Part shown: piece by piece, positions 2,954-59,151 of the stretch
How the letters are laid out: every line of letters starts with the position of its first letter
Position numbering within the stretch: position 1 is the first letter of the stretch
DNA from: an uncultured Prochlorococcus sp.
Lineage (GTDB): Bacteria > Cyanobacteriota > Cyanobacteriia > PCC-6307 > Cyanobiaceae
Assembly (NCBI GenBank): GCA_902574425.1
Contig: CACGNA010000001.1
Location: 1-64,000, forward strand
Reading direction: 5' to 3'
DNA: 64,000 nt
Program-made: the position numbers and the translations under genes
Notes under the pieces: model-generated
Told to the model about the DNA's origin: nothing
The model's database searches: none
What the model saw: the letters and a program-made list of their open reading frames with translations, nothing else

Positions 2954-3070
2954 TTAACGATTTTCTTTTAAATTTAAATTCTTGGTATTTGCGCTATCTG
3001 AAGAAAGAAATAAAAATAATATGATACTAATTAAACCTGAGAAGGTAAGTGTTAGTTGAAGAACTTCCAT
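2954..3070 (-). CDS. Small single-TM protein (38 aa), paralogue of 10410-10529
   Basis: MEVLQLTLTFSGLISIILFLFLSSDSANTKNLNLKENR preceded by AAGGTGG. Confidence 0.55.
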   Translation of the reverse strand: MEVLQLTLTFSGLISIILFLFLSSDSANTKNLNLKENR

Positions 3071-3348
3071 AATTAACCACCTTAATTATGTTTCTACTAC
3101 AAAGTTAGCAGTATTCTTAGTTTTCAAAAAGAGTAAATCTCCTTACTTATTTATGGAATAGTTACTTTAAAGAATAACCAGTATAGTGAGCTTCTTCTTA
3201 TATTTTTATCGAGTCACCATAGTAACTTTCCGCTATCTTAATCAATATCTAGTAGAAAAAATTAGCAAGTATTTTCTCCATAAGAATCTCTATAACTATT
3301 ATTATTCAAATCAGAATCTCTAACTAAAACAACGTAGAAAAAAGTTAT

Positions 3349-5573: not shown

Positions 5574-5901
5574 TAAACATTTATTGATTGGAGAACCAAT
5601 ATTCATGATAAAAAATTTAGTAGAGATTACTTTACTGCTTCCATTGCAGTTAGTGGGTTAATATATTCTTTTTCTCAAAAAAATATATTTTCTTATCATC
5701 CTTTTTTCTATCTCGGTTAAAACAAGAAACCCCTCCAGAAATTCCAACTACTGAAAGGGTTATTAAATCGATTCGCAACTATATTGAATCAATCTATGTC
5801 TTGCAGCAAACGTAGAGTGTGCTGACGAGGTTTGGCCTCAATTAATTTATAGCAATAAAATTAAAAATTAACGAATATTGCTGATGAAATTAGCTTTTAA
5901 T

Positions 5902-12561: not shown

Positions 12562-12871
12562 ACCTTAGATAATATTTCCACATAAATAAAAAATTTAATC
12601 TTTGATTTTTATAATTAATTTAATTTATTAAAAACAATTATCAAATAATAAATTCTGTAAATTTTAAACATTTGCTGTACAGGATTTGGTTGTTTAAGGG
12701 TTAATAATCATTATAATATCGACGATAATTGTCAATATTTATGACCCAGTATTAAGAATAACTTATGCATTTGGGAATATACTTAGTCTTACATTTTTGA
12801 GTTAGCTATACAGAGAGACTGGGAGTGATCCAAAGAAAGAAATCAAATTCAGAAAAAGATAAATAAAAAAA

Positions 12872-12985
12872 CTACTTCTGTATTTTTAACTTTGAAGAAT
12901 ACTTTAAATTAACAATGTAAGTCGCAACAAGAGATAGTATCAAAAAAAATAATAAGCTTTCCAAGGTAGATTGGGGCATAACCAT
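12872..12985 (-). CDS. Small TM protein (37 aa)
   Basis: M(VM)PQSTLESLLFFLILSLVATYIVNLKYSSKLKIQK. Confidence 0.4.
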   Translation of the reverse strand: MVMPQSTLESLLFFLILSLVATYIVNLKYSSKLKIQK

Positions 12986-13066
12986 GAGTAGTACCAAAAA
13001 TGATATATCTTTAGAGAAACGAATTCTGAAGAAAAATCAACCCTTTAATTATTTTTTATTTTCAAA

Positions 13067-14383
13067 TTAATAAATCCCAATCCCAAAAAATGAATTTGCA
13101 ATAAATAATAAGCTAAATAACGTTAAGAAAATTAATCCTATCCAACTTACTGTTTTTAGAAAAAATCCATATCTATTTTTAATTGGTACTAATTTGCTAT
13201 TTATAGTATCCATAGCCATCCATGCAAATAAAGGGGCGGTTAGAAAACTTCCAGTCATTGCAGCAAATACAAAATCTTTTACTCCTATACCTCCAGACCT
13301 TGCAATCAGCAAAGCTATTAATGATGCAAAGATATGTATAATCATCCAAAGTTGGAATCTATTTCGCTCTGATTTGGAATCCATGTGTCCAAAATCAGTA
13401 CCTCTCAATAAACCTTGAATAGCAGAAATACTTCTAGGATATGCATCTAGACAAGTAATTGTAGTACTAAACATTGCGGCAAATGCTGCAGGTATTATGA
13501 TCCATTTAGCCCAATTGCCAATGGATTTAGTGTAAAGGAGTATTAACTTTTGAGCGAAGGAGACTCCACTTCCGGAAAGCATTCCATCGCCAGTACCATA
13601 CATTGTTATTGCTCCAAGAGTAAGGAAGAAAATAGCCGTAACAACAGTTATTAAGTAACCGAGATTAAAATCGAATTCTGCTTCACTAATATTTGGTTTA
13701 TAGTTTGAATCTTTTGCTCGAGAAAACATCCATAAAGAAGGCCAAACACATAACTCTACTGGGCAAGGCATCCATCCCATTAAAGGGATCAAAAAAGCTA
13801 AATTTGTTAACTTCCATGGGCTGATTTCTGGTTCAAAAAAACTCATTTTTAGAGACTCATTTATTGAACCTTTAAGCAAAAGCGATAAAACTGCGAATAA
13901 TGTTAAAAAAGTTAAGAGAGATACTAAAAATTTTGAAATTCTATCAAGGGCTTTATATTTACCAAGAATTAATATCATTCCAGAAACAATCAGAATTCCT
14001 ATAGACAAATCCATCGCTGGAAAAGCTGAGAAAAAGGGGATATTAGTTAATAGAACACCAGAAACAAAACTTACAGCCGCTATTGTGAAAGTACCGGTAA
14101 TTAAACTAACTATTAGAAATAAAGGAAGATATAAAGAATTCCGCTCTTTGAAACCTTCTAATAATGATTTACCAGTACATGCTGTAAATCTAGTTCCAAC
14201 CAACAAAAATGGATATTTTAAAAGATTAGTAAGAAGGATTAGACCAACTAATGAAAATCCGAACCTCGCACCAGCAGTAGTTGAAGACAATAAATGAGAA
14301 CCCCCTATTGCCGCTCCAGCTAGCAAAATTCCTGGACCTAAACTTTTTTGTATTCCTTTTGTTAAATTAATGTTTTTCATCAA
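13067..14383 (-). CDS. NRAMP-related transporter lacking the canonical DPGN motif
   Basis: LGPGILLAGAAIGGSHLLSSTTAGARFG; about 11 TM segments. Confidence 0.75.
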   Translation of the reverse strand: MMKNINLTKGIQKSLGPGILLAGAAIGGSHLLSSTTAGARFGFSLVGLILLTNLLKYPFLLVGTRFTACTGKSLLEGFKERNSLYLPLFLIVSLITGTFTIAAVSFVSGVLLTNIPFFSAFPAMDLSIGILIVSGMILILGKYKALDRISKFLVSLLTFLTLFAVLSLLLKGSINESLKMSFFEPEISPWKLTNLAFLIPLMGWMPCPVELCVWPSLWMFSRAKDSNYKPNISEAEFDFNLGYLITVVTAIFFLTLGAITMYGTGDGMLSGSGVSFAQKLILLYTKSIGNWAKWIIIPAAFAAMFSTTITCLDAYPRSISAIQGLLRGTDFGHMDSKSERNRFQLWMIIHIFASLIALLIARSGGIGVKDFVFAAMTGSFLTAPLFAWMAMDTINSKLVPIKNRYGFFLKTVSWIGLIFLTLFSLLFIANSFFGIGIY

Positions 14384-14739
14384 ATGATTTAATTTACTTT
14401 TTGAGCCCTTCTAAAGTTATTTTTTAATACTCTTTTTTTAAAAGCAACATCAGATAATGTGTGAAAAATAAAAAGTATAATTAGGAATCCTATTCGAACT
14501 TTCATAAGATATCTCCTTCAAATATGCTTTTATCAGATATTTATTTTGTATTCAACCTCTTTTCTCCATAAAATCCTCAAAAACCTATCTAAAACATCTA
14601 CATCCTTTTTATCAAAACTTTTTTTTTTCTTTTTATTTTGTTTTTGCATAAATTATTACTTAAGTATTTCAACTTTAAACTGAGCCAAAAAAAACACAAT
14701 AAGCAAAACTTCTTAAAACTCAACATATTTGGATTGTTT

Positions 14740-15096
14740 TTAATTTGAGATATATTTTTCTGCCCTTCTTAATGCTTTTATTGCACCTCTATAATCAAGA
14801 TTTTTTAATTTTTCCTCACTTTTACGTTCCAACATTTTCACTATTTCATTTATCTTTATTTCATTAATTTTCAGTTTATGATCGAATATAAGATCAAATT
14901 TTGAGGAATATAAACTAGATAATTCTTTTCTATATTTTTGAATCATTTTTTCATCAAAAGATTTAGATTTCAATATTGCATTAGCCTTAATTTTGTCGTC
15001 TAAAGCGCCTTTAAAATTTCCTCGTTTAAATTTATTTTCACTTGATCTAGTTAGCTTAATAAGATTTTCCAAGATCAATCGCCCAGAATCTTCCAT
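14740..15096 (-). CDS. Hypothetical TPR-like/helical protein
   Basis: ORF track; helical repeats (NFKGALDDKIKA, DYRGAIKALRRAEKY). Confidence 0.5.
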   Translation of the reverse strand: MEDSGRLILENLIKLTRSSENKFKRGNFKGALDDKIKANAILKSKSFDEKMIQKYRKELSSLYSSKFDLIFDHKLKINEIKINEIVKMLERKSEEKLKNLDYRGAIKALRRAEKYISN

Positions 15097-15175
15097 GTTT
15101 TTATCTGACCTAAAATCAATCCTATCAGCTTAAAGAAAAAAGGAATTTATTTTTAAAAATTAAATAAATAATTAA

Positions 15176-15475
15176 TTAGCCAATAACAAGTCCTTTTTCA
15201 AGAAGTAAATCGAAAACCTCCACACTTTTCGTTTTCCCGAATTGGGGGGGCTTATGTAAATCTAATATTTGAGCAAGGCACATTATCCAATAAGTATCTT
15301 TTTTTAAATTTAGACCTTCGCAAATATGAGAGGGAGCCGATTTAAAACAGCCAAATTCTTTTGATATATTAATGTTCATGATTTGAGTTTCAAGTTCAAG
15401 ACTTAAAAAGTCTATTTCTTGCTCAGAAAGTGATGTCCCAAAAGAATAAGATTCAATTAAAAGTTGATAATTCAT
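15176..15475 (-). CDS. Hypothetical protein
   Basis: ORF track. Confidence 0.5.
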   Translation of the reverse strand: MNYQLLIESYSFGTSLSEQEIDFLSLELETQIMNINISKEFGCFKSAPSHICEGLNLKKDTYWIMCLAQILDLHKPPQFGKTKSVEVFDLLLEKGLVIG

Positions 15476-15490
15476 GAAAAGTTTATTTTT

Positions 15491-15772
15491 TCAAGAAATC
15501 CAGCGTGTTATTTTTGTGCCCTCATAAATATGTCCTGATGCCTCAACTATAGGTTTTGTTTCAGGATTCATAAAAATATCATATAGAACATTTTCTGGTC
15601 CTTGAAAAATTACAATTGCTCTTTGAGGATCATCTAATGATTTGCCAATATAAAATATTTTAACTCCCATTTCTTTAAACATCGTCTGCTGTTCTTTTGC
15701 ATTCATATGTGATGCATAATCCTCGAAGGTATTACTTAGTTTAAAATCTAGAATAGTTGTTTCAATATTCAT
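15491..15772 (-). CDS. DUF3764-like protein
   Basis: Sequence character of the picocyanobacterial DUF3764 family (QRAIVIFQGPENVLYDIFMNPETKPIVEASGHIYEGTKITRW). Confidence 0.65.
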   Translation of the reverse strand: MNIETTILDFKLSNTFEDYASHMNAKEQQTMFKEMGVKIFYIGKSLDDPQRAIVIFQGPENVLYDIFMNPETKPIVEASGHIYEGTKITRWIS

Positions 15773-15901
15773 AAGAGTAATGAGATATTTTTAATTCTAA
15801 ATGTAAAAAATAAATTTAATAAAGATTAGATTTTATTAAGCAAAGTATTAACTAATTTTTATTTATGAGTTATAAATCAACTATAAAAATCGATTTTAAT
15901 T

Positions 15902-17245
15902 TTGGACTCAAACATTTCTCAAAGAGAACAATGGACTAGTAAGTTGGGATTCATTCTCGCAGCTGCTGGAAGCGCAGTAGGTTTAGGCAACCTTTGGGGT
16001 TTCGCCTACAGGGCCTCTCAAGGGGGAGGGGCTGCTTTTGTACTTTTATACATACTGATTGTTTTAATTGTATGCCTTCCGGTATTTGTTGCTGAAATGG
16101 CTTTAGGAAGAAATGCAATGGCCAGCACATTACTTGCACCAGTAAAGTTAGCTGGAAGAAATTGGTATCCATTAGGAATTCTTTTCTTCATAGCACCTCT
16201 TGGAATAGCATCATATTATTCAGTAATAATGGGATGGACAGCCGATACCTTGTTCCATTCATTATTTTTTGGATTACCGAAGAATTTAACTGAAGCAGAA
16301 ACCTTCTTTGGCTCGATTAGTAGTGGTAGCAGTGTTTTGTTGGGGCACCTGTTGAGTCTTGTTCTTACAGCAATAATAGTTTCATCAGGAATAAAAAAAG
16401 GTATAGAAAAGATTACTAGATATTTCATGCCAATCCTTTTCATAATTATTGTGCTTCTTGCTATTTGGGCAACTTCACTTTCGGGAGCGTGGGAAGGATA
16501 TAAAACATTTTTGTTTAAGTTTGATTTTGATGAATTAAGGAACCCTCAAACAATTAGAAATGCTTTTACACAAGCTTTCTTTTCTTTAAGTTTAGGAATT
16601 GGAGTTATGGTGACTTACGCTTCTTATCTAAATAAAAAGAGTAATCTCCCAAAACTAAGTGTTGGAGTGGCATCATTGGATACTTTGGTGGGTCTTATGG
16701 CAGGACTTATTACTTTCCCAATAGTTTTAACATTTGGTTTAAGTGACGCTATTTCTGAATCCACTGTTGGTGCATTATTTATATCAATACCTACGGGCTT
16801 AGGTTCATATGGAGCGGTTGGAAGAATTGTAGCTGTTGCATTTTTTGCACTAGCTTATATTGCAGCAATAACTTCCTCTGTTTCATTATTGGAAGTTCCA
16901 GTTTCCTCTTTAATGGATAAATTTGGTTTTAAAAGAGAAAAATCGGTTTGGCTGATAACTCTATTCCTATTCTTAGCAGGCATTCCTTCTGCATTGAACT
17001 TAAACATTCTTGGAACTATTGATTCAATTTTTGGAGGCGTATTACTTATCTTTGGTGGATTCTTAGTTACTTTCTTTATGGGATGGGTAGTACCTGGAAA
17101 GTTTAATGAAGAACTTAATGTTTCTAAAGTTGGAGCCAAAACAACACGTTATTTAAAATTCATGACAAGATGGGTTGCGCCACCAATTATTGGTTTTGGA
17201 CTATTTATTAGTGTGTTTGATTTACTTAAAGGCTGGGTAAGTTAG
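15902..17245 (+). CDS. Sodium-dependent transporter, NSS/SNF family (TTG start)
   Basis: REQWTSKLGFILAAAGSAVGLGNLWGFAYRASQGGGAAFVLLY. Confidence 0.95.
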   Translation: MDSNISQREQWTSKLGFILAAAGSAVGLGNLWGFAYRASQGGGAAFVLLYILIVLIVCLPVFVAEMALGRNAMASTLLAPVKLAGRNWYPLGILFFIAPLGIASYYSVIMGWTADTLFHSLFFGLPKNLTEAETFFGSISSGSSVLLGHLLSLVLTAIIVSSGIKKGIEKITRYFMPILFIIIVLLAIWATSLSGAWEGYKTFLFKFDFDELRNPQTIRNAFTQAFFSLSLGIGVMVTYASYLNKKSNLPKLSVGVASLDTLVGLMAGLITFPIVLTFGLSDAISESTVGALFISIPTGLGSYGAVGRIVAVAFFALAYIAAITSSVSLLEVPVSSLMDKFGFKREKSVWLITLFLFLAGIPSALNLNILGTIDSIFGGVLLIFGGFLVTFFMGWVVPGKFNEELNVSKVGAKTTRYLKFMTRWVAPPIIGFGLFISVFDLLKGWVS

Positions 17246-17613
17246 AAAATTTTTACAGATAATATAGTGCGTAAATAGGGGGAGGGGTACAAGTCAAAAA
17301 AAATTAAATAGTTTAACTTTTTTTCATTATTTTTGAGCAAACTCAAAAAATACCAGTCAACAAATAACTATTTGCAATGGTTTTTAATTAAAAAATCGAT
17401 ATGCTGGCTAAGTTCGTTTTTGATTTTTAAAGTCTAAATATTTTTCTCAAGAAAATGTTTTACTGCGGAACCTTTTTTTAGTAAATATTAAATTTTAATT
17501 TCTATTTAATCTCAAAAGTATCTGCAGAAACCATCCCTAATAGAATCTATATAAAATACATTTAGGTGTTTAATTTAAAGAAATAAGAACGCCTAAAAGA
17601 ATAGATAACAAAT

Positions 17614-19320
17614 TTGATGTCCACCAAATCTGATTCATTAAGAGGAAAACTTACAGAAAATTTTTCTGAATTTTCTCAACTATCTGACTATTCTTTTATG
17701 AATTCTCTTAAAGCAGATCCTCAATCAACAAAAGATGGAAATGATCATAAGTCGCGTTCAGTATATACAGGTCATTACGTACCAGTTGTTCCAACTGCTA
17801 TTCCAGAACCAGAATATATTTCCCATAGCAACAAACTTTTTAAAGAACTAAGGCTAAGCTCAAATCTTATTAAAGACAAGAATTTTTGTCGTTTTTTCTC
17901 AGGTGATATTTCTGTTGCTAATTATCCAATGAGTCCTGTAGGTTGGGCAACAGGTTATGCATTATCAATTTACGGGACTGAATATACCCAACAATGTCCC
18001 TTTGGCACTGGTAATGGTTATGGCGATGGCAGAGCAATTTCTGTATTTGAAGGTTTATTCAATGGGAAGAGAATGGAGATGCAACTTAAAGGAGGAGGTC
18101 CAACTCCCTACTGCCGTGGAGCAGATGGTAGAGCTGTATTACGTTCTAGCGTTAGAGAATTTCTTGCACAGGAATTTATGGATGCCTTGGGAATCCCTAC
18201 TTCAAGATCTTTAACACTTTATGTCTCACGATCAGAAATAGTTAGGAGGCCATGGTATTCCAAAGGGTCCAGGTATTTTGAACCTGATATCATGATTGAT
18301 AATCAAGCGGCAATTACTACGAGAGTCGCTCCATCTTTTTTACGAGTTGGACAGCTTGAACTTTTTGCAAGACGAGTTCGTAATAATAGACATGATGAGG
18401 CCCTCAATGAACTAAAGATGATAGTTCAGCATCTTATTGATAGAAATTATAAAGATGAAATTGAATATGAGACTTCAATTGAAAGTAAGGCAATAAAACT
18501 GGCTTCTTTATACAGATCAAGACTAATATCACTTATAGCCAACTGGATGCGAGTTGGTTATTGCCAGGGGAACTTCAATAGCGATAATTGTGCTGCTGGA
18601 GGTTATACCTTGGATTATGGCCCCTTTGGATTCTGTGAATTATTTGATCCAAGATTTCAACCATGGACAGGTGGAGGTGAACATTTCTCATTTTTTAACC
18701 AACCTTCTGCTGCGGCTATAAACTTTAAAACATTCTGTTCTTCTCTTAGCCCCTTACTTTCAGAAAGCAAACAAGCTCAAGAAAAGTTAGATCAAATCGA
18801 AAAGGAATTTTCAGAATTGATGAACAAAGAGTTGAAGAAAATGTGGGCGGGCAAACTTGGTTTAGGGCATTACAACGCAACTCTTATTAATGAATTTTTT
18901 AATCTTATGGTCATTTCAAAAGCAGACTATACAATTTTGTTCCGTAAACTCTCTGACATACCTGATAACTTAGATTCTTTAAAAGACAGTTTTTATTTAC
19001 CAATTAATGATGAGCTCAAGAATAGATGGGAAGTCTGGCTTAAAAACTGGCAAGCAATCTTAAAGAATGAGATAGATTTTAAAGCAAAATCAGCTTCAAT
19101 GAAATCTCTTAACCCAGTTTATACATGGCGAGAATGGATGATTGTTCCTGCATATGAAGATGCCGAAAAAGGAAATTACACGAAAATAAAGGAGTTACAG
19201 GATGTTTTTAGCAATCCATATATAGAACAATCCTCAGAAATAGATCAAAAATATAATCTTTTAAGGCCAAGCCAATATTTCAACTACGGAGGCATCTCTC
19301 ACTACAGCTGTTCTTCATAA
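17614..19320 (+). CDS. selO: Protein adenylyltransferase SelO/YdiU family
   Basis: MQLKGGGPTPYCRGADGRAVLRSSVREFLAQEFMDALGIPTSRSL; long conserved pseudokinase ORF. Confidence 0.93.
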   Translation: MMSTKSDSLRGKLTENFSEFSQLSDYSFMNSLKADPQSTKDGNDHKSRSVYTGHYVPVVPTAIPEPEYISHSNKLFKELRLSSNLIKDKNFCRFFSGDISVANYPMSPVGWATGYALSIYGTEYTQQCPFGTGNGYGDGRAISVFEGLFNGKRMEMQLKGGGPTPYCRGADGRAVLRSSVREFLAQEFMDALGIPTSRSLTLYVSRSEIVRRPWYSKGSRYFEPDIMIDNQAAITTRVAPSFLRVGQLELFARRVRNNRHDEALNELKMIVQHLIDRNYKDEIEYETSIESKAIKLASLYRSRLISLIANWMRVGYCQGNFNSDNCAAGGYTLDYGPFGFCELFDPRFQPWTGGGEHFSFFNQPSAAAINFKTFCSSLSPLLSESKQAQEKLDQIEKEFSELMNKELKKMWAGKLGLGHYNATLINEFFNLMVISKADYTILFRKLSDIPDNLDSLKDSFYLPINDELKNRWEVWLKNWQAILKNEIDFKAKSASMKSLNPVYTWREWMIVPAYEDAEKGNYTKIKELQDVFSNPYIEQSSEIDQKYNLLRPSQYFNYGGISHYSCSS

Positions 19321-19365
19321 ATGTCGAATCCTCAAAATGCAGATTGAATAACTTAGAAAAAAATC

Positions 19366-19704
19366 TTATTTATTTATGGCTGTAGGCATTCCAACTACTG
19401 ATACAACTCCCACATGAAGTATAGCTGGCTTATTTCCTACACTTTTGACATAGTGGGCGCCACCTTTATTACTCTCTATAAATGCATCACCTGCTTTAAA
19501 GAAATTAATTTCTTCACCCCTCACATGCTTTAATCTTCCTCTGGTGACATGAATCAACATTGGGGAAGGATGTTTATGAATTGGAGTTTTCAAGCAAACC
19601 GGAATTTTTACTTTTAAAAGTCTTAATTCAGGCTTACCCTCGAGATAATTAAAATTTTGGCCACTTAGTCCTTTTTGAACTTTAAATAATAGGTATAACT
19701 TCAA
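19366..19704 (-). CDS. Cupin-domain protein
   Basis: PIHKHPSPMLIHVTRGRLKHVRGE...GDAFIE; N-terminus may be incomplete. Confidence 0.7.
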   Translation of the reverse strand: MKLYLLFKVQKGLSGQNFNYLEGKPELRLLKVKIPVCLKTPIHKHPSPMLIHVTRGRLKHVRGEEINFFKAGDAFIESNKGGAHYVKSVGNKPAILHVGVVSVVGMPTAINK

Positions 19705-21712: not shown

Positions 21713-21859
21713 GAGTAAAAACTATATATCAAAAAAAGAGATTGTTTCTTAGCTAAAAACAATCTCTCGATTACCTAATTCTTACATGAAAATTTCAAGT
21801 AAGTTCATAAATTCTAACTGATTTTTTCTTATAGTAAATACGTAAAAATGCTTTTTTAT

Positions 21860-43850: not shown

Positions 43851-45216
43851 TAATTTATTAAGAGCTCCAAACCAAAGTATTGAAGAGACTGGTTATGCCT
43901 GGTATGTAGGCAACGCTAGACTAATCAATTTATCTGGACGTTTATTAGGAGCTCATATCGCTCACGCTGGACTTATAGTCTTTTGGGCAGGAGCAATGAT
44001 GCTCTTTGAGGTTAATCATTTTACTTTTGATAAACCAATGTGGGAGCAAGGACTAATTTGTATGCCACACGTAGCAATGTTTGGTTATGGAATAGGCCCC
44101 GGTGGTGAAGTTACTGATATCATGCCTTTCTTTCAGGCTGGCGTGGTTCATTTAATAGCTTCTGCAGTGCTTGGCTTTGGAGGAATTTACCATTCATTAG
44201 CCGGTCCTGAGAAGCTTGAAGAAGCTTTCCCATTTTTCTCTACTGACTGGAGAGATAAAAATCAAATGACCAATATTCTTGGTTATCATTTGTGTGTTCT
44301 TGGTGTAGGTGCATTAGCATGGTCTGTGAACTGGAGTTTCATTGGTGGTGCATATGATACTTGGGCACCTGGTGGTGGTGAAGTCAGATTAGTCAATCCA
44401 ACATTAGATCCAAGAGTTATTCTTGGTTATCTATTTAGATCTCCGTGGGGAGGCGCTGGTTCTATAATCGGTGTTAACTCAATTGAAGATATTGTTGGTG
44501 GACATGTCTATGTGGGTGTAACTGCAATTATTGGAGGAATATTCCACATCTTTACCAAACCTTTTGGATGGGCAAGGAGAGCATTCATCTGGAATGGTGA
44601 AGGACTATTAAGTTATGCTCTTGGTGGAATTTGTGTAGCAAGTTTTATTGCATCAACTTTCATTTGGTTTAACAATACTGCTTACCCATCAGAATTTTAC
44701 GGTCCTACAAATGCTGAAGCTTCGCAGGCCCAAAGCTTTACTTTCCTTGTGAGAGATCAAAGAATTGGAGCTAACGTAGGAACAACAATGGGACCAACTG
44801 GTTTAGGTAAGTATCTCATGAGATCTCCTACAGGTGAAATTATATTTGGTGGTGAAACAATGAGATTTTGGGATTTCAGAGGACCATGGTTAGAGCCTCT
44901 TAGAGGACCTAATGGATTGAGCCTTGAGAAAATTCAAAATGATATTCAGCCTTGGCAAGTTAGAAGAGCTGCTGAATATATGACTCATGCTCCTAACGCT
45001 TCTATCAACTCAGTTGGTGGAATCATTACTGAGCCTAATGCTGTTAACTTCGTTAACCTAAGACAATGGTTAGCTGCAGCACAATTCTTCCTAGGATGGT
45101 TTACATTCATTGGTCACCTTTGGCATGCTGGACGTGCTAGAGCAGCCGCTGCTGGTTTCGAAAAAGGAATCGACAGAAAGAGTGAACCGGCTTTAGAAAT
45201 GCCTGATTTAGATTAA
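43834..45216 (+). CDS. psbC: Photosystem II CP43 (GTG start overlapping psbD)
   Basis: [41 protein letters not shown]. Confidence 0.98.
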
Positions 45217-50683: not shown

Positions 50684-50765
50684 AAAAAAAAAGACCCCTA
50701 TTTCTAGAGGTCTTTCTTGGTATTACTAAATCAAGTGTTTCCTTGTTTCCACTGTTTTAGTAAAA
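50684..50765 (-). ncRNA. yfr2: Yfr2-family ncRNA with terminator
   Basis: ACTAAAAC-AGTGGAAACAAGGAAACACT-TGATTTAGT hairpin with two GGAAACA motifs, then AAAGACCTCTAGAAATAGGGGTCTTTTTTTTT. Confidence 0.8.
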
Positions 50766-50967
50766 CCACTCCTTCACACATATACAAACTATGACATTTA
50801 TTTCTTTTACGTGGAAGGTGCGAATGGAATTTTACTTAAATGTCACATGCACTAATTGTCTATAGCAGTATATTTGTCATTATTTATTTAAAAGTAAAGA
50901 GTAAAAGAAAAAAGTTGGTTTTGGGTAAATAACTATATTAATTTGATCAAATAATATTTAATCTTAA

Positions 50968-51570
50968 TTAGATTAAGAATAAAAAACATCCTGCAATAAA
51001 TCCACTTAAATGCCCTAATAAACTTACCCCTGGCAATAAAGAGAAAATCAAACCTATAAGGCATATTGTCTTTGACATTTTTTGAACTTCATAATTGGAT
51101 TTAAGACCAATTCCTTTACCTAAAAAATAACTCTTTCCATAAAAAGAAGTTAATAGCAAGAATCCAAATAAAGCATAAATTATTCCACTGAATCCTAAAG
51201 CTGCATAATTCGGATAGATATTAAAATAAGATAAGATCTTTTCGTAAACCCAGATAATAAAAAAATTAAAAAAAGAACAAATTAAAATAAATTTAAAATA
51301 AAAAAATCTGCTTTCTATTCCAAGTCTCATCAAAAAATATCTAGTGATAATTATTCCACCAAGATTACTTAATAAATGATTTAAATCTGAATGGATTAGA
51401 ATTGATGTAAAAATCCTATAGGGTTGGTAACTAATTAATCTTGGTACAAAGTAAAATTTTTCTTTATCAATAACTCCAATCAAATCTGTAAAAATAAAAA
51501 CTGAGATTAAAAAAAGTCCAGTTAAAAGGTACTGCCAATCATATTTAGATATTGAATTATAAAAAGGCAT
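50968..51570 (-). CDS. Rhomboid-family intramembrane protease
   Basis: HSDLNHLLSN, GFSGIIYALFGF, GHLSGFIAG. Confidence 0.85.
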   Translation of the reverse strand: MPFYNSISKYDWQYLLTGLFLISVFIFTDLIGVIDKEKFYFVPRLISYQPYRIFTSILIHSDLNHLLSNLGGIIITRYFLMRLGIESRFFYFKFILICSFFNFFIIWVYEKILSYFNIYPNYAALGFSGIIYALFGFLLLTSFYGKSYFLGKGIGLKSNYEVQKMSKTICLIGLIFSLLPGVSLLGHLSGFIAGCFLFLI

Positions 51571-51604
51571 TTTTTAGTTTTATATTAAAAAATATATTCT
51601 AAAA

Positions 51605-51634
51605 TAGAAGAAAAAGACCCTGAAAAGGGTCTTT
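51605..51634 (-). terminator. Rho-independent terminator
   Basis: AAAGACCCttttcaGGGTCTTTTTCTTC on minus strand. Confidence 0.7.
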
Positions 51635-51660
51635 ATTAATACCTTAAATTTACATTACCT

Positions 51661-51819
51661 TTAGTAGATTTTGCAATGAGAACTTGTTGGGTGGTCTATG
51701 CATTCTTTTTCCCAATAATCTTGTCTTTGATCTTTAGGTAGTTGATAATTAAAATCATGCATTCTCCAAATATCTGAAGTTGCATTTCTAAGGGCAGTGA
51801 ATGGAGTCGTTAGTCTCAT
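51661..51819 (-). CDS. Small protein (52 aa), missed by ORF track
   Basis: MRLTTPFTALRNATSDIWRMHDFNYQLPKDQRQDYWEKECIDHPTSSHCKIY; strong RBS TAGGAGG; terminator downstream. Confidence 0.75.
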   Translation of the reverse strand: MRLTTPFTALRNATSDIWRMHDFNYQLPKDQRQDYWEKECIDHPTSSHCKIY

Positions 51820-52021
51820 AAAACCTCCTATATCTCTACTTCTTAATTATCCTCCCATTCAATTGAAATTAATAGAGTATTAATACCCGAGTATTAGTGC
51901 TTTGTGGTTGTTACAACTTTTTTCCAATTAAGAACTTTCTTTTCCCATTAAGTAGGATTAGAAATAATTCACTATTCAAACGCACTTCATCGAATTTGTG
52001 GACAGAGGGGTTTATAAGACT

Positions 52022-52056
52022 AGAAGAGGGTATTTGTTTGCCCTCTTATTTTTTTT
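52022..52056 (+). terminator. Rho-independent terminator with no clear upstream gene
   Basis: AAGAGGGtatttgtttgCCCTCTTattttttttc. Confidence 0.7.
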
Positions 52057-52176
52057 CAATTTTATTCGTGTATTTTGTTAATGGATTAAACTTATAAAGT
52101 AAATCATAAAATTTCTTATTCAAAAGATAATGATTAAAATCTCTTTGGATGCGTTCAAAAAGTATGTAGGGAAAGT

Positions 52177-52362
52177 ATGAGCACTAAATGGGATGACAAA
52201 TCTTGGCAGAAAGATTTCTTAAACATGAAGTCGCATTCTCCCTCAGATGCAAAACTCTTAATTGGAGGTGTAAAAGGATTAAAAGATGCATGGCGTCTAG
52301 GTGTAATGCATTTGGAATACGAAAGACTGAAGAAAATACAGGAGGAACAGCAACAGCAATGA
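52177..52362 (+). CDS. Small protein A, copy 1 of a duplicated gene pair
   Basis: MSTKWDDKSWQKDFLNMKSHSPSDAKLLIGGVKGLKDAWRLGVMHLEYERLKKIQEEQQQQ; near-identical to 55644-55835. Confidence 0.8.
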   Translation: MSTKWDDKSWQKDFLNMKSHSPSDAKLLIGGVKGLKDAWRLGVMHLEYERLKKIQEEQQQQ

Positions 52363-52589
52363 CAGAAAAAATAAACTGGCAGAAAGAATTATTAGAAAGT
52401 GGAAAGTTTAATGATAAATTTTCAAAAAATCTTCTAAAACATGGAGCAAAAAACTTTATGCAAGGAATCTATCTTGGATATATGTATTCTAGATGGAGAA
52501 AAATAAGAGGTTTAGCGAAAGATGATCCAGTAGAAAATAAAGGTCAAATGCAATCATCATTCAAAGATTTTGAGGAGAAAATCAAATAA
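52359..52589 (+). CDS. Small protein B, copy 1 (ATGA overlap with A)
   Basis: MTEKINWQKELLESGKFNDKFSKNLLKHGAKNFMQGIYLGYMYSRWRKIRGL; near-identical to 55832-56062. Confidence 0.8.
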   Translation: MTEKINWQKELLESGKFNDKFSKNLLKHGAKNFMQGIYLGYMYSRWRKIRGLAKDDPVENKGQMQSSFKDFEEKIK

Positions 52590-52656
52590 AAACGATAAGT
52601 ACTTCCCCTTTAGAAGAATCAGAATCTCCTAATTATTTACAAACGATATTGAGGAA

Positions 52657-52735
52657 TCCACCAACACCATATTTCGTCAATCAAATATCCACCAACACAT
52701 CCACCAACACCAAAAACTTGCCGATATTGGACGAC
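52657..52735. repeat. Iteron cluster A: three TCCACCAACAC direct repeats plus shared tail GATATTGGACGA
   Basis: Repeats at 52657, 52688, 52700. Confidence 0.9.
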
Positions 52736-52758
52736 ACTGTACTCAAAATAATAAAAGA

Positions 52759-55179
52759 TTAACCTTTACTCTTAAAGTGATTGCTTATGTAGTTAATTAG
52801 TTTTTCTCCTTCAAGTTTATCGGTGGCAGGATTTGTTCGAACATAAAAATCTTTAGCATCGATAAAACATGCTGATTTTGATTGTTTACATTCAATCATA
52901 AGGACTTCTTTATTATCAATATTCACAATCTCAGAGTTAATAAAAGGATAAAATTGTTCGCCAATTTTATTTCTAATTTGATTCTTAAAATACAATAAAA
53001 ATTTATCTTTTTTATTTTGTTTTAATTTCAAATCTTTCTCTAGACCAATAATATTGCCTTCATCACTGACTCCAATTAAAAGATGTCCTCCATTACTATT
53101 TAAAAAGGCAGCAATAGTTTTTAAACACGCAAGTTCAATAATCTTTTTATCAACCTCTCCTTTCATGCAGACACTAAAAGTAGACTTAAACTCCAACGTT
53201 CCAGATTCGCCCTTTTGAATAAGATTTATTATTTTTTCTGCATTTGTTAGACCTCCAACTGCTTCAAGCATTCCATCAATTTGTTCAAGAACATTACTTG
53301 TACTAATTGGACTTACAGCATAGTTATTTTCTAATTCTTCTATTTTTACCTTCAAATTATTTAAGCGTTCACTAGTCTTAATTATCTTTTTTTGATCTGA
53401 AATAAATGGTACAGGAATGACCATTTCATCTAAAAAACCTTCCCATCTTATTTCCCTAACAACATTGTAATTACATAGATTTGCAAGCATCAATTTACCA
53501 AGTTTAGATCTAAGGAATACTGATAGATACTTGTTGATAATCTTTTCTGGTTTTAAGACAAGTTGAAATGCGAATTGATGAGATACTTCTAAGTCTTTTA
53601 AGTGAACAACAGAATTTTTTGTGGGAATTCTTGGCACATATATTGCATTATCCTTATCTTCGAAATGTCCTCCGCGCATACAAAAATTCCTTTCAAGAAT
53701 CAATTCATTCAATGCAATACTCTTGTAGTTTTCGTATTGCCCAAGTAAACGTTTAATTTGTTTAGTTTCTGGAGATGCGTTTACATATCTTTTAACGCTT
53801 AGGTTGAAATTATTTTTTTCTAAAGAATCGATTGTGATAATCGATGAATAAAATTCTTTTTCTTCAAAGTTTTCAAAACTATTTAAGATTAATGTTATGT
53901 CCTCTTCTCTTAGGTGGTTTTTATATTTACCTTTTTCATATCCCTGACTTCCATCAATAAAAAGCACTTTGCCTTTCCTTTCATTACTTTTTTTCTTATT
54001 AATAATCAAAATTGATGCAGGAATTCCTGTCCAATCAAATAAACCTTGCGGTAATGCAATTACTGCTTCAATTAAATCTCTCTTTAGAATTCCTTTTCTA
54101 ATTTCCCCTTCAGAAGCACCTCTAAAAAGAATTCCATTTGGAACAAGCACTCCCATGATTCCTGTTTCATTTAAAGATGCAATCATGTGTTGGACAAACG
54201 CAAAGTCGCCAGAACCTTTAGGTGGTATACCAAATTTGTATCTTCCAAAAATATCGTTTTGGGCAATATCGCGACCCCAATTCCCCAAGGAAAAAGGTGG
54301 ATTAGCAATTACTCTATCAAATTGTTTAATTAGACCATTTTCTAGATGTTGAGGATTTATTAATGTATCCCCTTTTTTGATATTTGCTTCATTAACACCA
54401 TGAAATAACATGTTTAATTTGCACATTGTCCATGTACTTTGATTAAGTTCCTGCCCGGCAATCAAAAGTTTATCTGGATCTTCCCCATTTATTTTTAAAT
54501 AATTTCTTGCTGCAGTAAACATTCCACCTGATCCGCATACCGGGTCATATATTTCCATTCCCTCTTTTGGTTTTATTAATTTTATGAGTAATTCAACTAT
54601 CTTTTTAGGAGTATAAAATTCTCCTCCTCTTTTACCTGCAGATTTAACAAACATTTGAATAAGGTATTCGTATGCAGTTCCTAATAAATCAGATTTATCA
54701 AAATCTGATTTCCTTAATCTCAAAATAGAGAAATGAGAAATTAGTTCCCTTAGTTTGAAATCATTTAGTTTATCTTTGATATTAAAATCAATGGATGTAA
54801 GAACCTCATCAAGATTTGGATTATATTGTTCGATTGATTCGTTTGCTTTGTTTAATTTAATCCCAATATCTTGCTTCAAATCTTTTAAATTATTCCATTG
54901 TGCATTTTCAGGAATATAAAAATTATTTTTATAATGATCTGGGTTATTTGCTAATTTTTTTGCTTCGGTTAAGGTTTTATTATTTTCAGTAAAAGACTGA
55001 ATAATTTTTTCCTTTTCTTCATCAAAAGAATCAGAAAGGTGTTTTAAGAAAAAGATGCCAAATATATAATCCTTAAATTCAGAGGCATCTAAAGTACCTC
55101 TGAGAATTTCAGCACTTTCCCAGAGAAATGTTTGAAGTTGTGATAAAGAATGTTTTTTTTCTATAATTTTTGGGAATTT
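52759..55179 (-). CDS. HsdM-type N6-adenine methylase fused to HsdS-like half domain and AlbA_2/Schlafen-like domain; canonical start absent
   Basis: HsdM N-terminus LSQLQTFLWESAEILRGTLDASEFKDYIFGIFFLKHLSD read in frame upstream of the called TTG at 54879; NPPF methylase motif; LEFKSTF...ECKQSKSACFIDAKDFYVRTNPAT. Confidence 0.85.
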   Translation of the reverse strand, partial: KFPKIIEKKHSLSQLQTFLWESAEILRGTLDASEFKDYIFGIFFLKHLSDSFDEEKEKIIQSFTENNKTLTEAKKLANNPDHYKNNFYIPENAQWNNLKDLKQDIGIKLNKANESIEQYNPNLDEVLTSIDFNIKDKLNDFKLRELISHFSILRLRKSDFDKSDLLGTAYEYLIQMFVKSAGKRGGEFYTPKKIVELLIKLIKPKEGMEIYDPVCGSGGMFTAARNYLKINGEDPDKLLIAGQELNQSTWTMCKLNMLFHGVNEANIKKGDTLINPQHLENGLIKQFDRVIANPPFSLGNWGRDIAQNDIFGRYKFGIPPKGSGDFAFVQHMIASLNETGIMGVLVPNGILFRGASEGEIRKGILKRDLIEAVIALPQGLFDWTGIPASILIINKKKSNERKGKVLFIDGSQGYEKGKYKNHLREEDITLILNSFENFEEKEFYSSIITIDSLEKNNFNLSVKRYVNASPETKQIKRLLGQYENYKSIALNELILERNFCMRGGHFEDKDNAIYVPRIPTKNSVVHLKDLEVSHQFAFQLVLKPEKIINKYLSVFLRSKLGKLMLANLCNYNVVREIRWEGFLDEMVIPVPFISDQKKIIKTSERLNNLKVKIEELENNYAVSPISTSNVLEQIDGMLEAVGGLTNAEKIINLIQKGESGTLEFKSTFSVCMKGEVDKKIIELACLKTIAAFLNSNGGHLLIGVSDEGNIIGLEKDLKLKQNKKDKFLLYFKNQIRNKIGEQFYPFINSEIVNIDNKEVLMIECKQSKSACFIDAKDFYVRTNPATDKLEGEKLINYISNHFKSKG

Positions 55180-55307
55180 CTAAGATTAATTTAGACAAAT
55201 ATTTTTTGATTTACATTTCACATTATTTTTTCGTGATATTCTTTACATTCCTTTGGCAGAAGTTTTGATTAGATATGAACAAATACTGGGTATAATTATG
55301 GAAAATA

Positions 55308-55613
55308 ATGACGAAAAATTCTCCTCCTAAAATTGATGACACCTGGTACTTTCGTGGAAAGTTAATGGAGGATTGCTATCCCTTATTTGATGGAGAATAT
55401 AGATGGCATAAAATTCAAAACTGTCCAAAATGCAAAGCAAAAAATTCTATCAAACCTTGTATTTGGGGCATGCCTAGTGCAGAAGATGGGCGCTCTGGGA
55501 AATATGCAATTATGGGATGCTCTTTAGAAATACCTTCAGCAAAATGGGCATGTGTGAAATGTGACTATAGAATTTATTACCCACCTGATTGCTTGGAAAG
55601 AGATCCAGATTAA
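55308..55613 (+). CDS. Zinc-ribbon-like small protein
   Basis: Two CxxC pairs: CPKCKAK and CVKCDYRI. Confidence 0.65.
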   Translation: MTKNSPPKIDDTWYFRGKLMEDCYPLFDGEYRWHKIQNCPKCKAKNSIKPCIWGMPSAEDGRSGKYAIMGCSLEIPSAKWACVKCDYRIYYPPDCLERDPD

Positions 55614-55643
55614 AATTATATCTAAAGTAAACGCATTAAAAAA

Positions 55644-55835
55644 ATGAAGAATGGTAATAAATGGGATGACAAATCTTGGCAGAAAGAGTTCTTGAACATG
55701 AAGTCACATTCTCCTTCAGACGCAAAACTCCTAATGGGAGGTGTAAAAGGATTGAAAGATGCTTGGCGTTTAGGTGTTCTGCATGTTGACTACGAAAGAC
55801 TGAAGAAAAGACAAGAGGAGCAGCAGCAGCAATGA
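55644..55835 (+). CDS. Small protein A, copy 2
   Basis: NKWDDKSWQKEFLNMKSHSPSDAKLLMGGVKGLKDAWRLGVLHVDYERLKK. Confidence 0.8.
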   Translation: MKNGNKWDDKSWQKEFLNMKSHSPSDAKLLMGGVKGLKDAWRLGVLHVDYERLKKRQEEQQQQ

Positions 55836-56062
55836 AAGAAAAAATAAACTGGCAAAAAGAATTAATAGAGAGCGGAAAATTCAACGATAAATTTTCAAAG
55901 AATTTATTAGAAAATGGAGCAAGGAATTTCATGCAAGGAATATATCTTGGATATATGTATTCAAGGTGGAGAAAAATTAGAGGATTGGATAAAGATAACC
56001 CCATAGAAAACAAAGGTCAAATGCAATCATCTTTTAAAGATTTTGAGAAGAAAATCAAATGA
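55832..56062 (+). CDS. Small protein B, copy 2 (ATGA overlap)
   Basis: MKEKINWQKELIESGKFNDKFSKNLLENGARNFMQGIYLGYMYSRWRKIRGLDKD. Confidence 0.8.
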   Translation: MKEKINWQKELIESGKFNDKFSKNLLENGARNFMQGIYLGYMYSRWRKIRGLDKDNPIENKGQMQSSFKDFEKKIK

Positions 56063-56128
56063 AGATGATATCTATTTCCCTCCAGAAGAGTCAGAACCAC
56101 CTCATTATTAACAAAGGATCTTGAGGAA

Positions 56129-56215
56129 TCCACCAACACATAATTCGTGCATCAAATATCCACCAACACATCCACCAACACCAAAAACTTGCAGATATTG
56201 GACGAAATTGGACTA
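56129..56215. repeat. Iteron cluster B: three TCCACCAACAC repeats plus GATATTGGACGA tail
   Basis: Repeats at 56129, 56159, 56171. Confidence 0.9.
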
Positions 56216-56223
56216 TTAAAACA

Positions 56224-57063
56224 CTAAATTTTATCAAGTGTTCTTTTACCTTTCACTATTAAACTTGTTGCAAGTCCAACTGCGGTAAAAAAGTTTATCC
56301 CTGGGATAGTCAAAGCAACGGCAATCATTGAGAACTTAACAATTTTTTTTCCTGTTATTAATGCAGATGTTTTTAAAAATTCATCTCTTTTGATTTCACC
56401 ATTCATCCATTTTTTAATTAAAAAAACCAAAGATATAGCAAGACTTATTGTTCCAATATTTCCAATTAAAGGAGTAAGAGACTCTTCATCAGCATCCTTT
56501 ACTTTATCTAAAAAATCCTCAACTTTTACCTCTAATTCATCATTACTAATTCCTACACCATCTAACCCTAATTCCTCAGCAACCTCATCAGTGACTACAA
56601 TATTATCGCCATGTTCATCCATCCAACTTTTAACATAAGATGCACTATCAGTTGCCTTAAGTTGAATTTCTTCTATATCCCCTGTTTGTTCATCAATTAA
56701 TTGAACATCATATGTTGGATAATTTGTTTGCTCAAACTGATAAGCAAATATTGAATCGCCATCATTGTTCTCTATCTCAACAAATTCAAGTTCAAATAAA
56801 ATACCTTTTACATTATTAACCAAACCTGGAATCTGATCATCATCATAGGAATTTAAAATTTCCCCTATCTCCTCTAATGAAGCATTCTCGAACTTCTTTG
56901 CAGATCTTCTTAATGCAGCAAGAACTATAGACTCATCAGAAGTAAGATTTCTCTCAGAACCTTTTGATGCAATAGAGATTAAAGAAGTAAGAATAGCAAC
57001 TTCATCAAAGTTATTCCTGACAAAATTTGTCAAACTCCTAATTTTTTCTTTAAATTTATTCAC
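56224..57063 (-). CDS. Membrane protein with D...QxK-type soluble domain, unknown function
   Basis: FELEFVEIENNDGDSIFAYQFEQTNYPTYDVQLIDEQTGDIEEIQLKATD; C-terminal TMs. Confidence 0.65.
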   Translation of the reverse strand: MNKFKEKIRSLTNFVRNNFDEVAILTSLISIASKGSERNLTSDESIVLAALRRSAKKFENASLEEIGEILNSYDDDQIPGLVNNVKGILFELEFVEIENNDGDSIFAYQFEQTNYPTYDVQLIDEQTGDIEEIQLKATDSASYVKSWMDEHGDNIVVTDEVAEELGLDGVGISNDELEVKVEDFLDKVKDADEESLTPLIGNIGTISLAISLVFLIKKWMNGEIKRDEFLKTSALITGKKIVKFSMIAVALTIPGINFFTAVGLATSLIVKGKRTLDKI

Positions 57064-57094
57064 TTTAATAAGTTAGTAAATTAATGATTTTTAA

Positions 57095-57640
57095 TCATTT
57101 AATTTCAATCTCATCCCCTTTTTTATACTTATCTTGACCTTTTGTTTTGTATACTTTCCACATTTCTCTAATTTGATCTTTGGAAAGTTTTGATTGTCCT
57201 TTTGCACGCCTTTTATAAATTAATTCCGAAAGAACATTTCCAATAGCATAGGTGCATCCATAAACCATTGGTATAGTGGTTACTGCACCAAAATATGGCA
57301 GAAAAGTTTTATAAGATTGAGTCACAAAGAACATTGCACCTAATCCCATAAATCCAATTTTACTAATATCTTTTAATACTGAACCAACAGATGCTTCTTT
57401 GACAGGAACTCCCCAGATTGCTGCTAATCTTTCTCCCATTAATACTTGTAAAGGAGTCAATATAAAGATATCCATGAATGGGATTGGTTGTATCGCGACT
57501 CCAGCACAAACTCCCGAAAATAAATTAATTATTCTTTGTGCTTTTTCTTCCTGAGAAAGATCATCTCTTTTTTCAATTTCAACCAAATTTTCTTTCAAAA
57601 ATTTTTTTGCTTTTTCAATTCTGGAATCAGTAGAACTCAT
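57095..57640 (-). CDS. DUF697-like membrane protein
   Basis: GVAIQPIPFMDIFILTPLQVLMGERLAAIWGVPV. Confidence 0.7.
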   Translation of the reverse strand: MSSTDSRIEKAKKFLKENLVEIEKRDDLSQEEKAQRIINLFSGVCAGVAIQPIPFMDIFILTPLQVLMGERLAAIWGVPVKEASVGSVLKDISKIGFMGLGAMFFVTQSYKTFLPYFGAVTTIPMVYGCTYAIGNVLSELIYKRRAKGQSKLSKDQIREMWKVYKTKGQDKYKKGDEIEIK

Positions 57641-57771
57641 TTAAAAAACTTTTTTTTATAATATTTTAATTAATTTGATAAATCTTAAATTATGTAGAAT
57701 TCTTTATTTTTAAAACTAATTTCCTAAAAAATTTTTTTAATATTCGAATCAAATAATTTATATATTATTCT

Positions 57772-58716
57772 TCAATTTTCTTGATGAATTTTCGCCCAGG
57801 TTTCAAAAAATAATAATGCATATAATATTCCAAGGAATTTCTTTCTAGTCTTATTTTTATTTTTTGGATGACTTAACGCATTACGGCAATTCATCATTAT
57901 CGACAAAGATTGATATAGATCTACCGTTCCTTCACGATCATTGAAATAATATCCTTCTCTTCTAGCATCATCAACACATCTGTTATAACTTTTGCTTTTA
58001 TTATTTGCATCAATATTCTTTAATGTTCCATATACTATTTCATGATTTTCTAAAACAAAATCTGTTAACTGATTTATATTAAAACTTTCTAATAAAGATT
58101 GCATTTTGGGATTATCTTTTAGCATTGGTCCGTCAGATATTATTTGACGAAAATATTTATTCATCACATCATCAATCTTTTCATTTTGATAATTCTCATT
58201 TCCCTTTGATTTTTTCTCAAGCATCAATATATTATTTTTATTTTTGTTTTCCAATAGAGAATCCAATTTCTCAGATTGACTAGATAATGAGTTCTTAAGA
58301 AAATTAATAGACTCGCTAAATTCATCTAATTTTTCTTGAATAAGTAAGGATTTATTATCAGAAACAGAGGAAGTAGCATTTAGTTCTTGTTTTGGTTGTC
58401 TTCTAAAATCTTGCCAGAGTTCTTTTATTTGATCATCCGTAAGATTTGACTCCTTATTTGAACTATTTACATTTACCTTGGTTTCATGTTGTGGTTCAGT
58501 GATTTTGAAAATTTTTGCTTTTGGTTTCAACTTTGCTACTAATTCTTTATAAACAGATATTTTTTTCGGAAAAACCCATTTTCTTATTTCACCATTCCAT
58601 TGCCTAAATTGAATATCTTTTGCAATTTGTCTTTCTTCTGGATGAATTTTTAAATAATAGAATTTAAGGTCCTCGGTAATCTCAGGAGGGAAATAAGGAG
58701 TTCTATAGTCAGTCAA
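57772..58716 (-). CDS. Protein with C-terminal HEPN-like RNase motif
   Basis: C-terminal CRNALSHPKNKNKTRKKF (R-x4-H); central coiled region; N-terminal RQWNGEIRKWVFP. Confidence 0.65.
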   Translation of the reverse strand: MTDYRTPYFPPEITEDLKFYYLKIHPEERQIAKDIQFRQWNGEIRKWVFPKKISVYKELVAKLKPKAKIFKITEPQHETKVNVNSSNKESNLTDDQIKELWQDFRRQPKQELNATSSVSDNKSLLIQEKLDEFSESINFLKNSLSSQSEKLDSLLENKNKNNILMLEKKSKGNENYQNEKIDDVMNKYFRQIISDGPMLKDNPKMQSLLESFNINQLTDFVLENHEIVYGTLKNIDANNKSKSYNRCVDDARREGYYFNDREGTVDLYQSLSIMMNCRNALSHPKNKNKTRKKFLGILYALLFFETWAKIHQEN

Positions 58717-58817
58717 AACGCTGAGATTTACTTATCATAAAGACTAATAAATTTTTCAATACAAAACAAATATTTTCAACTTTCAATAATTTCTTGTAAT
58801 TAAGTTTTAATGTCATA

Positions 58818-58920
58818 TCCACCAACACATACTTCGTGCATCAAATATCCACCAACACATCAAAAAATATCCACCAACACATCCACCAACACAATCAGGC
58901 ATACACTGGTAAATATTGGA
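58818..58920. repeat. Iteron cluster C: four TCCACCAACAC repeats plus AATATTGGAC tail
   Basis: Repeats at 58818, 58848, 58870, 58882. Confidence 0.9.
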
Positions 58921-59003
58921 CTTTATAGGACAAGCAACTTCTTTAAAAACCTATTTTGACTACATTATTGCCCACATAGCACTTTACAGAAAGATTATTA
59001 AAC

Positions 59004-59087
59004 GGAGAGGGTGGGATTCGAACCCACGAATAGTTACCTATTAAACGATTTCGAATCGTTCGCTTTCGACCACTCAGCCACCTCTCC
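59004..59087 (-). tRNA. tRNA-Ser(CGA)
   Basis: GGAGAGGTGGCTGAGTGGTCGAAAGCGAACGATTCGAAATCGTT...GGGTTCGAATCCCACCCTCTCC; anticodon CGA. Confidence 0.97.
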
Positions 59088-59151
59088 AAGTTTTATTAAT
59101 TATCTACAAAATTGGATGAAAAAGTTAAGGTCTATTTATTTATCTTAATTA

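Follow-up and report, generated by a model that had tools for sequence, protein, structure and literature searches.

Iteron clusters beside a Prochlorococcus tRNA-Ser(CGA) gene as probable arm-type attachment sites of small integrase-less elements

What kind of site is formed by ten copies of one 11-bp sequence gathered in three clusters beside a tRNA gene? This question is raised by TCCACCAACAC, which occurs in ten exact copies, every one on the + strand, in positions 1 to 64,000 of contig CACGNA010000001.1 from an uncultured Prochlorococcus sp. (assembly GCA_902574425.1), a 64-kb stretch referred to here as the window. The copies, or iterons, start at 52657, 52688 and 52700 (cluster 1), at 56129, 56159 and 56171 (cluster 2), and at 58818, 58848, 58870 and 58882 (cluster 3). 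The initial annotation had listed these ten copies, with spacings of 31+12, 30+12 and 30+22+12 bp and with related tails and CGT linkers, and all of this was recovered: the coordinates give the same spacings, and ATATTGGAC tails and CGT..ATCAAATA linkers are read at the clusters. With up to one mismatch allowed, the window holds 11 matches against 0.33 expected and a maximum of 2 in 100 shuffles. The 11-mer is not a common, unclustered word, since the remainder of the source genome (65% complete) holds only scattered singletons with one mismatch and no further exact copy. Nor are the clusters coding sequence, as all three are intergenic and adjoin open reading frames (ORFs). Rfam at gathering thresholds has no match at any cluster, so that a reading of the clusters as RNA is not supported. 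A duplication of 87% identity, which includes two small ORFs, adjoins clusters 1 and 2, and the end of cluster 3 lies 110 bp from the 3′ end of tRNA-Ser(CGA).

Arm-type sites of a tyrosine recombinase, iterons of a replication initiator and binding sites of a multimeric repressor had all been proposed, and comparative evidence from sequence favours the first. The iterons are very probably the arm-type sites of a lambda-like attachment site, with which small integrase-less elements would insert at the 3′ end of tRNA-Ser(CGA), and the 11-mers are most likely the predicted docking sites gripped by a site-specific recombination enzyme. This reading is chosen because the iterons lie to either side of a core derived from the tRNA, at a fixed distance on each side, because the iteron variants at the two ends of an element agree, and because empty and filled sites differ at the core.

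A tRNA-derived core flanked by iterons

The double iteron TCCACCAACACATCCACCAACAC (up to two mismatches) is found in 38 of 266 genomes of the genus, while the reversed control gave 0 matches. An exact scan of genome contigs matched 25 stretches; the titles name Prochlorococcus in 24 of them and an "uncultured Synechococcaceae cyanobacterium" in the other. In the 39 regions taken around iteron matches for comparison, tRNA-Ser is present in 36 (CGA in 35, TGA in one), and the three others are a region that reaches its contig end (L080), a complete 6-kb contig (L105) and an 8-kb piece (L111). Two partners had been suggested for the clusters: the association with tRNA-proximal islands is borne out by these regions, whereas a tyrosine recombinase was found in none of the islands.

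The geometry of the site was determined in 59 regions, comprising these 39 and 20 from genomes without the double iteron, in which a cluster was counted if it held at least one 12-bp iteron pair and was otherwise dropped, leaving 75 clusters. The 3′ end of the tRNA gene carries CGGAGAGGGTG, which closes the flank after the last iteron and recurs inside the islands of other genomes with an iteron pair following at a fixed distance. This core precedes the first iteron by 82 bp in 35 of the 75 clusters (81 bp in 1) and follows the last iteron by 110-113 bp in 30 (122 bp in one); six further clusters, with variant iterons, have the core 130-158 bp downstream. When regions are oriented by their iterons (721,914 bp), exact cores number 70 on the iteron strand and 0 on the opposite strand, and 12-bp iteron pairs number 76 and 0. 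Intact tandem junctions stand beside TCCACCAACAC-type arrays in L081, L091 (where the far-side left arm has a divergent iteron) and L095. Their order is a right (P′) arm, typically of four iterons (30-22-12), then 110 bp, the core CGGAGAGGGTG, 71 bp, and a left (P) arm of two iterons (12). With a short core common to the element ends and the tRNA 3′ end, and with arm repeats on both sides of it at a defined distance, this layout is that of a lambda-type attachment site. An accessory repeat, TGGACNATATNGGAC (up to three mismatches), is present in 17 of 31 LA, 18 of 31 RA and 18 of 30 RB flanks, where shuffles give about 0.1-0.25, and stands at a single preferred position in 15 of 17, 10 of 18 and 15 of 18 of these, respectively; a directionality factor might bind there.

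Empty and filled sites differ at the core. The homology of the chromosomal left flank stops in 12 regions some 25-28 bp before the core. In the empty sites L187, L196 and L199, the flank is followed about 26 bp further on by the core and the tRNA gene, whereas in nine filled sites (L080, L081, L082, L089, L090, L091, L092, L098 and L105) it is followed by a core at a similar distance and then by an arm. This left core has one mismatch in L080, L082, L090 and L105 and is exact in the other five.

The two ends of an element also match in their iterons, which occur in several variants (TCCACCACCAC, TCCACCAACAA, TCCCCCAACAY, CCCGCCAACAA and others). Both ends (attL and attR) were found for 29 elements in the 59 regions, of which 21 are longer than 400 bp (0.8-6.9 kb) and entered the comparison; the other 8 were dropped because most use one array for both ends. 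Summed over these elements, the variants at opposite ends of an element differ by 78 mismatches, whereas 10,000 shuffles gave a mean of 152 and never fewer than 91; this significance is somewhat overstated because related elements are not independent. The agreement suggests that one protein must recognise both ends of an element.

The same architecture is found at a tRNA-Ser(TGA) gene in G085 (L087 8916-11147), where each end has iteron TCCACCAACAA and the core is CGGAGGGGGTG. L113 contains two complete tRNA-Ser(CGA) genes 2.8 kb apart (203-287 and 3001-3085), and the interval between them holds an iteron left arm as well as a copy of the flanking transporter-like gene that is shortened to 225 aa. 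Other repeat families (GAACAGGTAT, TTTTTACATGTG and a GTCC type) stand by the same core at L078 7594, L108 10055, L096 10606 and L198 13416, as if several element families shared the tRNA target.

Fused junctions and solo remnants

In the window, cluster 3 has the composition of an intact right arm, and clusters 1 and 2 have a different one (Table 1). At cluster 1, homology on the left side (to L077, L198, L104, L102 and others) ends at about 52700, and on the right side the match to left-arm flanks (L086, L105 and others) starts at 52683, with 52683-52748 being 100% identical to the left arm of L086. At cluster 2, left-side homology ends at 56170-56172, apart from a few matches (L083, L108) that extend to the end of the third iteron, and right-side homology begins at 56154. 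Both breakpoints thus fall inside an 18-bp interval that holds iteron 2. Compared with the intact junction of L081, clusters 1 and 2 show one 237-column gap, which removes iterons, RB, the core and LA. These clusters, therefore, appear to be fused halves of two different arms rather than whole sites, and a hybrid of the same kind with another crossover iteron is present at L110 437. In addition, five remnants without cargo, each with a left and a right core, were found: L082, L085 and L096 (215 bp each), L109 (218 bp, with two mismatches in its left core) and L090 (237 bp). Such solo remnants would fit recombination between the two arms of one element, and recombination between direct iterons could explain both fused junctions and solo remnants as a single rule.

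A model can be proposed in which a tyrosine integrase supplied in trans binds the iterons via its N-terminal domain and exchanges strands in the core. Each insertion would rebuild the tRNA gene and leave a copy of the core at the far end, so that repeated insertions would stack elements in tandem. Because all iterons point the same way, iteron-iteron recombination, whether homologous (RecA-dependent), by slippage or driven by an enzyme, would have two outcomes: the cargo of one element is stripped, leaving a solo remnant of about 215 bp, or two neighbours are fused with deletion of the intervening core. In the window, clusters 1 and 2 would then each be a fusion and cluster 3 the one arm still intact, and its segments retain only the attachment site on the tRNA side. 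For segment E1, the left limit is set by homology in other loci, since its left core is absent; in several genomes the small-ORF module of this segment is contiguous with the chromosome, with no core between.

Table 1. Coordinates of the array and its surroundings in the window
Feature	Position	Strand	Description
Chromosomal left flank	51401-52056		match to 12 other regions ends at 52054-52056
Segment E1	52137-52656	+	two small overlapping ORFs (61 and 76 aa) and inner flank of P′ arm
Cluster 1	52657-52710	+	three iterons; putative fused junction, P′ (right) arm inner flank and iterons 1-2 joined to second iteron and inner flank of P (left) arm; no core within 250 bp
Breakpoint interval, fused junction 1	52683-52700	+	holds iteron 2
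RA flank	52711-52757	+	inner side of left arm; accessory repeat GATATTGGACGACACTGTAC
Segment E2	52711-56128		N6-adenine methyltransferase fused to Schlafen AlbA_2 (706-aa ORF, - strand), 101-aa ORF, second copy of small-ORF pair
Cluster 2	56129-56181	+	three iterons; putative fused junction like cluster 1
Breakpoint interval, fused junction 2	56154-56171	+	holds iteron 2
Segment E3	56182-58817	-	279-aa protein (PADLOC PDC-M72B), 181-aa DUF697 protein, 314-aa protein
Cluster 3	58818-58892	+	four iterons; probable intact right (P′) arm
RB	58893-59002	+	110-bp spacer from last iteron to core; accessory repeats ACACTGGTAA, ATATTGGACT and TTATAGGACA
Attachment core CGGAGAGGGTG	59003-59013	+	tRNA gene 3′ end; sole window copy at up to one mismatch
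tRNA-Ser(CGA)	59002-59088	-	probable integration target

The search for an enzyme and the weighing of explanations

The initial annotation had seen no integrase in the window, which is correct, and all the tRNA-Ser(CGA) islands examined gave the same result. The 38 iteron genomes contain 57 matches to PF00589, none of which lies in an iteron-bearing island as judged by position. A profile built from ten of these integrases has no match in the 39 iteron regions (E up to 1) or in the 20 further tRNA-Ser(CGA) regions (E up to 0.001); the hunt also covered 20 integrase regions by inspection. Since core genes are present on both sides of the island in 26 of the 39 regions, the absence of an integrase there is not due to cut contigs. 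A picocyanobacterial integrase family is described at tRNA-Phe and tRNA-Cys, and, in the available text, its authors state that the original profile models were blind to it (PMC10187409). As an integrase was detected in none of the tRNA-Ser(CGA) islands, these elements resemble cis-mobilizable elements and look non-autonomous.

An integrase linked to tRNA-Ser(TGA) was used as a query and has matches in 27 of 266 genus genomes at E 1e-30. At nearly all of the loci listed, the integrase lies 5′ of a tRNA gene whose 3′ end has the related core CGGAGRGGGTG, and none of these 27 loci has TCCACCAACAC arms. In two of them (L204 and L212), a TTCACCCAACA array lies across the tRNA gene from the integrase, about 102 bp from the core, which is suggestive only as a pointer to the enzyme. 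Upstream of the integrase, L200-L226 have direct repeats of their own at a fixed distance from the core, examples being TAAGGCCACC (14 bp apart, at about +254) and ATTCGGAAACA (11 bp apart, at +236). Among viral contigs, neither the exact double iteron nor the pattern of core plus LA has a match. A degenerate pattern matched 15 contigs, 14 of which share one repetitive low-complexity stretch while one differs; none has the core, and these matches were set aside as unrelated.

Several observations weigh against arm-type sites of mobile elements. The core is short, only 11 bp. At any of the distances found for the other clusters, 7 of the 75 have no core; three of these are of the fused type and one has the core at 76 bp. 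Three of the 21 elements (L078, L094 and L184) have clearly different iterons at their opposite ends; L078 holds the element of Prochlorococcus marinus MIT 9107 (L060, NZ_JNAI01000002.1), which is the only named isolate among the matches. The window array has no left core, the sole copy with up to one mismatch being that in the tRNA gene, so that no pair of attachment sites marks the limits of its leftmost element and the array would be grounded, with its right side intact. No cognate integrase was found in the 39 and 20 regions, where a highly divergent family could be missed, and three scans found no viral contig with the element. The direct repeats with helical phasing would also suit a replication origin, in which excised elements replicate and an initiator binds the iterons, and a protein with a DnaB-like helicase C-terminal domain is indeed recurring cargo (L084, L086, L091, L105 and L108, by family grouping and Pfam). 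An origin is nevertheless very improbable, as the iterons keep fixed distances from the tRNA core on either side of it and occur also in helicase-free elements and in solo remnants, and no initiator is among the 30 proteins, part of the cargo, that were scanned with Pfam. Slightly less credit still is given to an operator array, at which a repressor or another regulator would control the genes of the element: the location of the arrays between genes and the accessory repeats that flank them would suit this, but the arrays keep their place relative to the core and the tRNA rather than to one gene, and the neighbouring cargo varies freely.

Two further alternatives accept the attachment site and concern the way in which it is used. 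Clusters 1 and 2 may have arisen not by deletion at a tandem junction but from incoming DNA that recombined into the array via the iterons, or from a recombinase crossing at iterons, as the shared 18-bp breakpoint interval fails to separate deletion from exchange. Such an exchange is the less favoured explanation, though one of some weight, because a single 237-bp gap against the intact L081 junction suffices and the solo remnants make deletions between arms plausible. The cognate enzyme, in turn, might be a resident 389-aa tyrosine recombinase, with enzyme and array lying apart in a chromosomal cassette system. Several iteron genomes, among them the complete G012 and the incomplete genome of the window, have this recombinase as their sole PF00589 match. 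Its gene lies at L164 8220-9389 on the - strand; a recombinase of similar length is present in most of the 38 genomes. This assignment is unlikely, as no iteron pair or core is near its gene and the core is common to several distinct arm families, a sign that more than one enzyme is involved. The recombinase may also have a housekeeping role; its neighbours in the window's genome, which we take to be ferrochelatase, cobalamin adenosyltransferase and pyrH, look like housekeeping genes. More broadly, the arm-type reading allows the tentative idea, which we hold to be possible rather than probable, of a dispersed integron-like system: a recombinase whose gene lies elsewhere, either resident or visiting, would load integrase-less cassettes, several with defence genes, at tRNA-Ser(CGA), the iterons would double as seams that fuse cassettes into composites or empty them, and several arm families would compete for the 11-bp core.

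Relation to known elements, cargo and other features

The closest described kind appears to be the cis-mobilizable element (CIME) in tandem accretion. In the ICESt1 family and in the ssrA islands of Dehalococcoides, integrase-less elements bounded by attachment sites are stacked at one 3′ end and movable only by the enzyme of another element, as far as the available parts of these papers describe (PMC5704250, PMC3146451). The lack of an integrase and the stacking are alike here, and so are the boundaries of the 29 elements with both ends; the window's own segments keep only the site at the tRNA. Integration genes were found in none of the 39 and 20 regions, searched with PF00589 (iteron genomes) or the ten-integrase profile. 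In contrast to CIMEs, a multi-iteron arm is visible on both sides of the core, the elements are small (0.8-6.9 kb), the regions examined show no integrase-bearing partner at tRNA-Ser(CGA), and elements appear to be fused or emptied by recombination from iteron to iteron. In the mycobacteriophage attP sites of PMC10865867, to the extent that the accessible text describes them, pairs of short direct repeats likewise stand on both sides of a short core shared with a tRNA gene; here there are two to seven repeats per arm and the elements have no integrase.

Integrase-bearing tycheposons explain part of the remodelling of Prochlorococcus islands. Tycheposons are reportedly the subject of Hackl et al. 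2023 in Prochlorococcus. They resemble the present elements in genus, tRNA-gene integration and island remodelling, and would be the nearest described kind in the same host, with their traits taken from portions of PMC10872708 and PMC10187409. The comparison covers recombinase and tRNA target only, and a defining gene, a deep-branching tyrosine recombinase of their own, is absent here. Of the 27 integrase-bearing loci at tRNA-Ser(TGA), which may or may not be tycheposons, 2 have a comparable left array.

Integron cassette arrays consist of exchangeable cassettes separated by recombination sites. The present arrays are alike in that exchangeable cassettes have recombination sites between them, and integron arrays, too, may be enzyme-free, being then termed CALIN in the part of PMC11389934 available. 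Unlike the folded attC sites of integrons, the sites here consist of direct-repeat arms and a tRNA core, as judged by repeat orientation (76 pairs versus 0), and the target is a tRNA gene. Islands without a detectable integrase are, thus, still made of modules bounded by attachment sites, with type I and type II restriction-modification among their cargo, and the arm iterons together with the core form a simple signature with which the limits of such modules can be drawn in any genome. Fused and solo junctions would be a molecular record of the joining and emptying of cassettes, showing how islands grow and lose moving parts. The model predicts an excision circle with a P′-core-P junction. A literature search of partial coverage found no account of these iterons.

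The cargo of these elements is diverse. The small overlapping ORF pair (61-63 and 76 aa) is duplicated in the window (52177-52586 and 55644-56059) and often lies directly upstream of a P′ arm. The two ORFs are paralogous to each other (phrog_16908, phrog_869) and have distant homologs in the cyanophages P-TIM68 (48% identity), S-SSM4 (51%), P-RSM6 and S-SSM6b. They were considered as an excisionase, a role that the AlphaFold2 model of the 76-aa protein, all helical with a mean pLDDT of 76, makes doubtful, since the excisionase fold is a winged helix. The frame of the methyltransferase-AlbA_2 gene is open for 806 codons (52759-55179, - strand), the first 100 of which have no ATG, GTG or TTG, and its 5′ end may be frameshifted. 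The PDC-M72B match, a PADLOC defence candidate with E 7e-29, adjoins the DUF697 protein (56227-57640, - strand). In other regions, L091 has a type I restriction-modification set (12695-19635), L081 a C5 methylase together with an ICEA-domain protein and an Mrr/ResIII protein, and L095 a serine resolvase; DnaB-C, 2OG oxygenases, and TPR and MORN proteins are also among the cargo. Elsewhere in the window, four other RNAs are found, all on the - strand: Yfr13 (5742-5839), Yfr19 (21723-21804), IsrR (44248-44431) and Cyano-1 (50714-50783).

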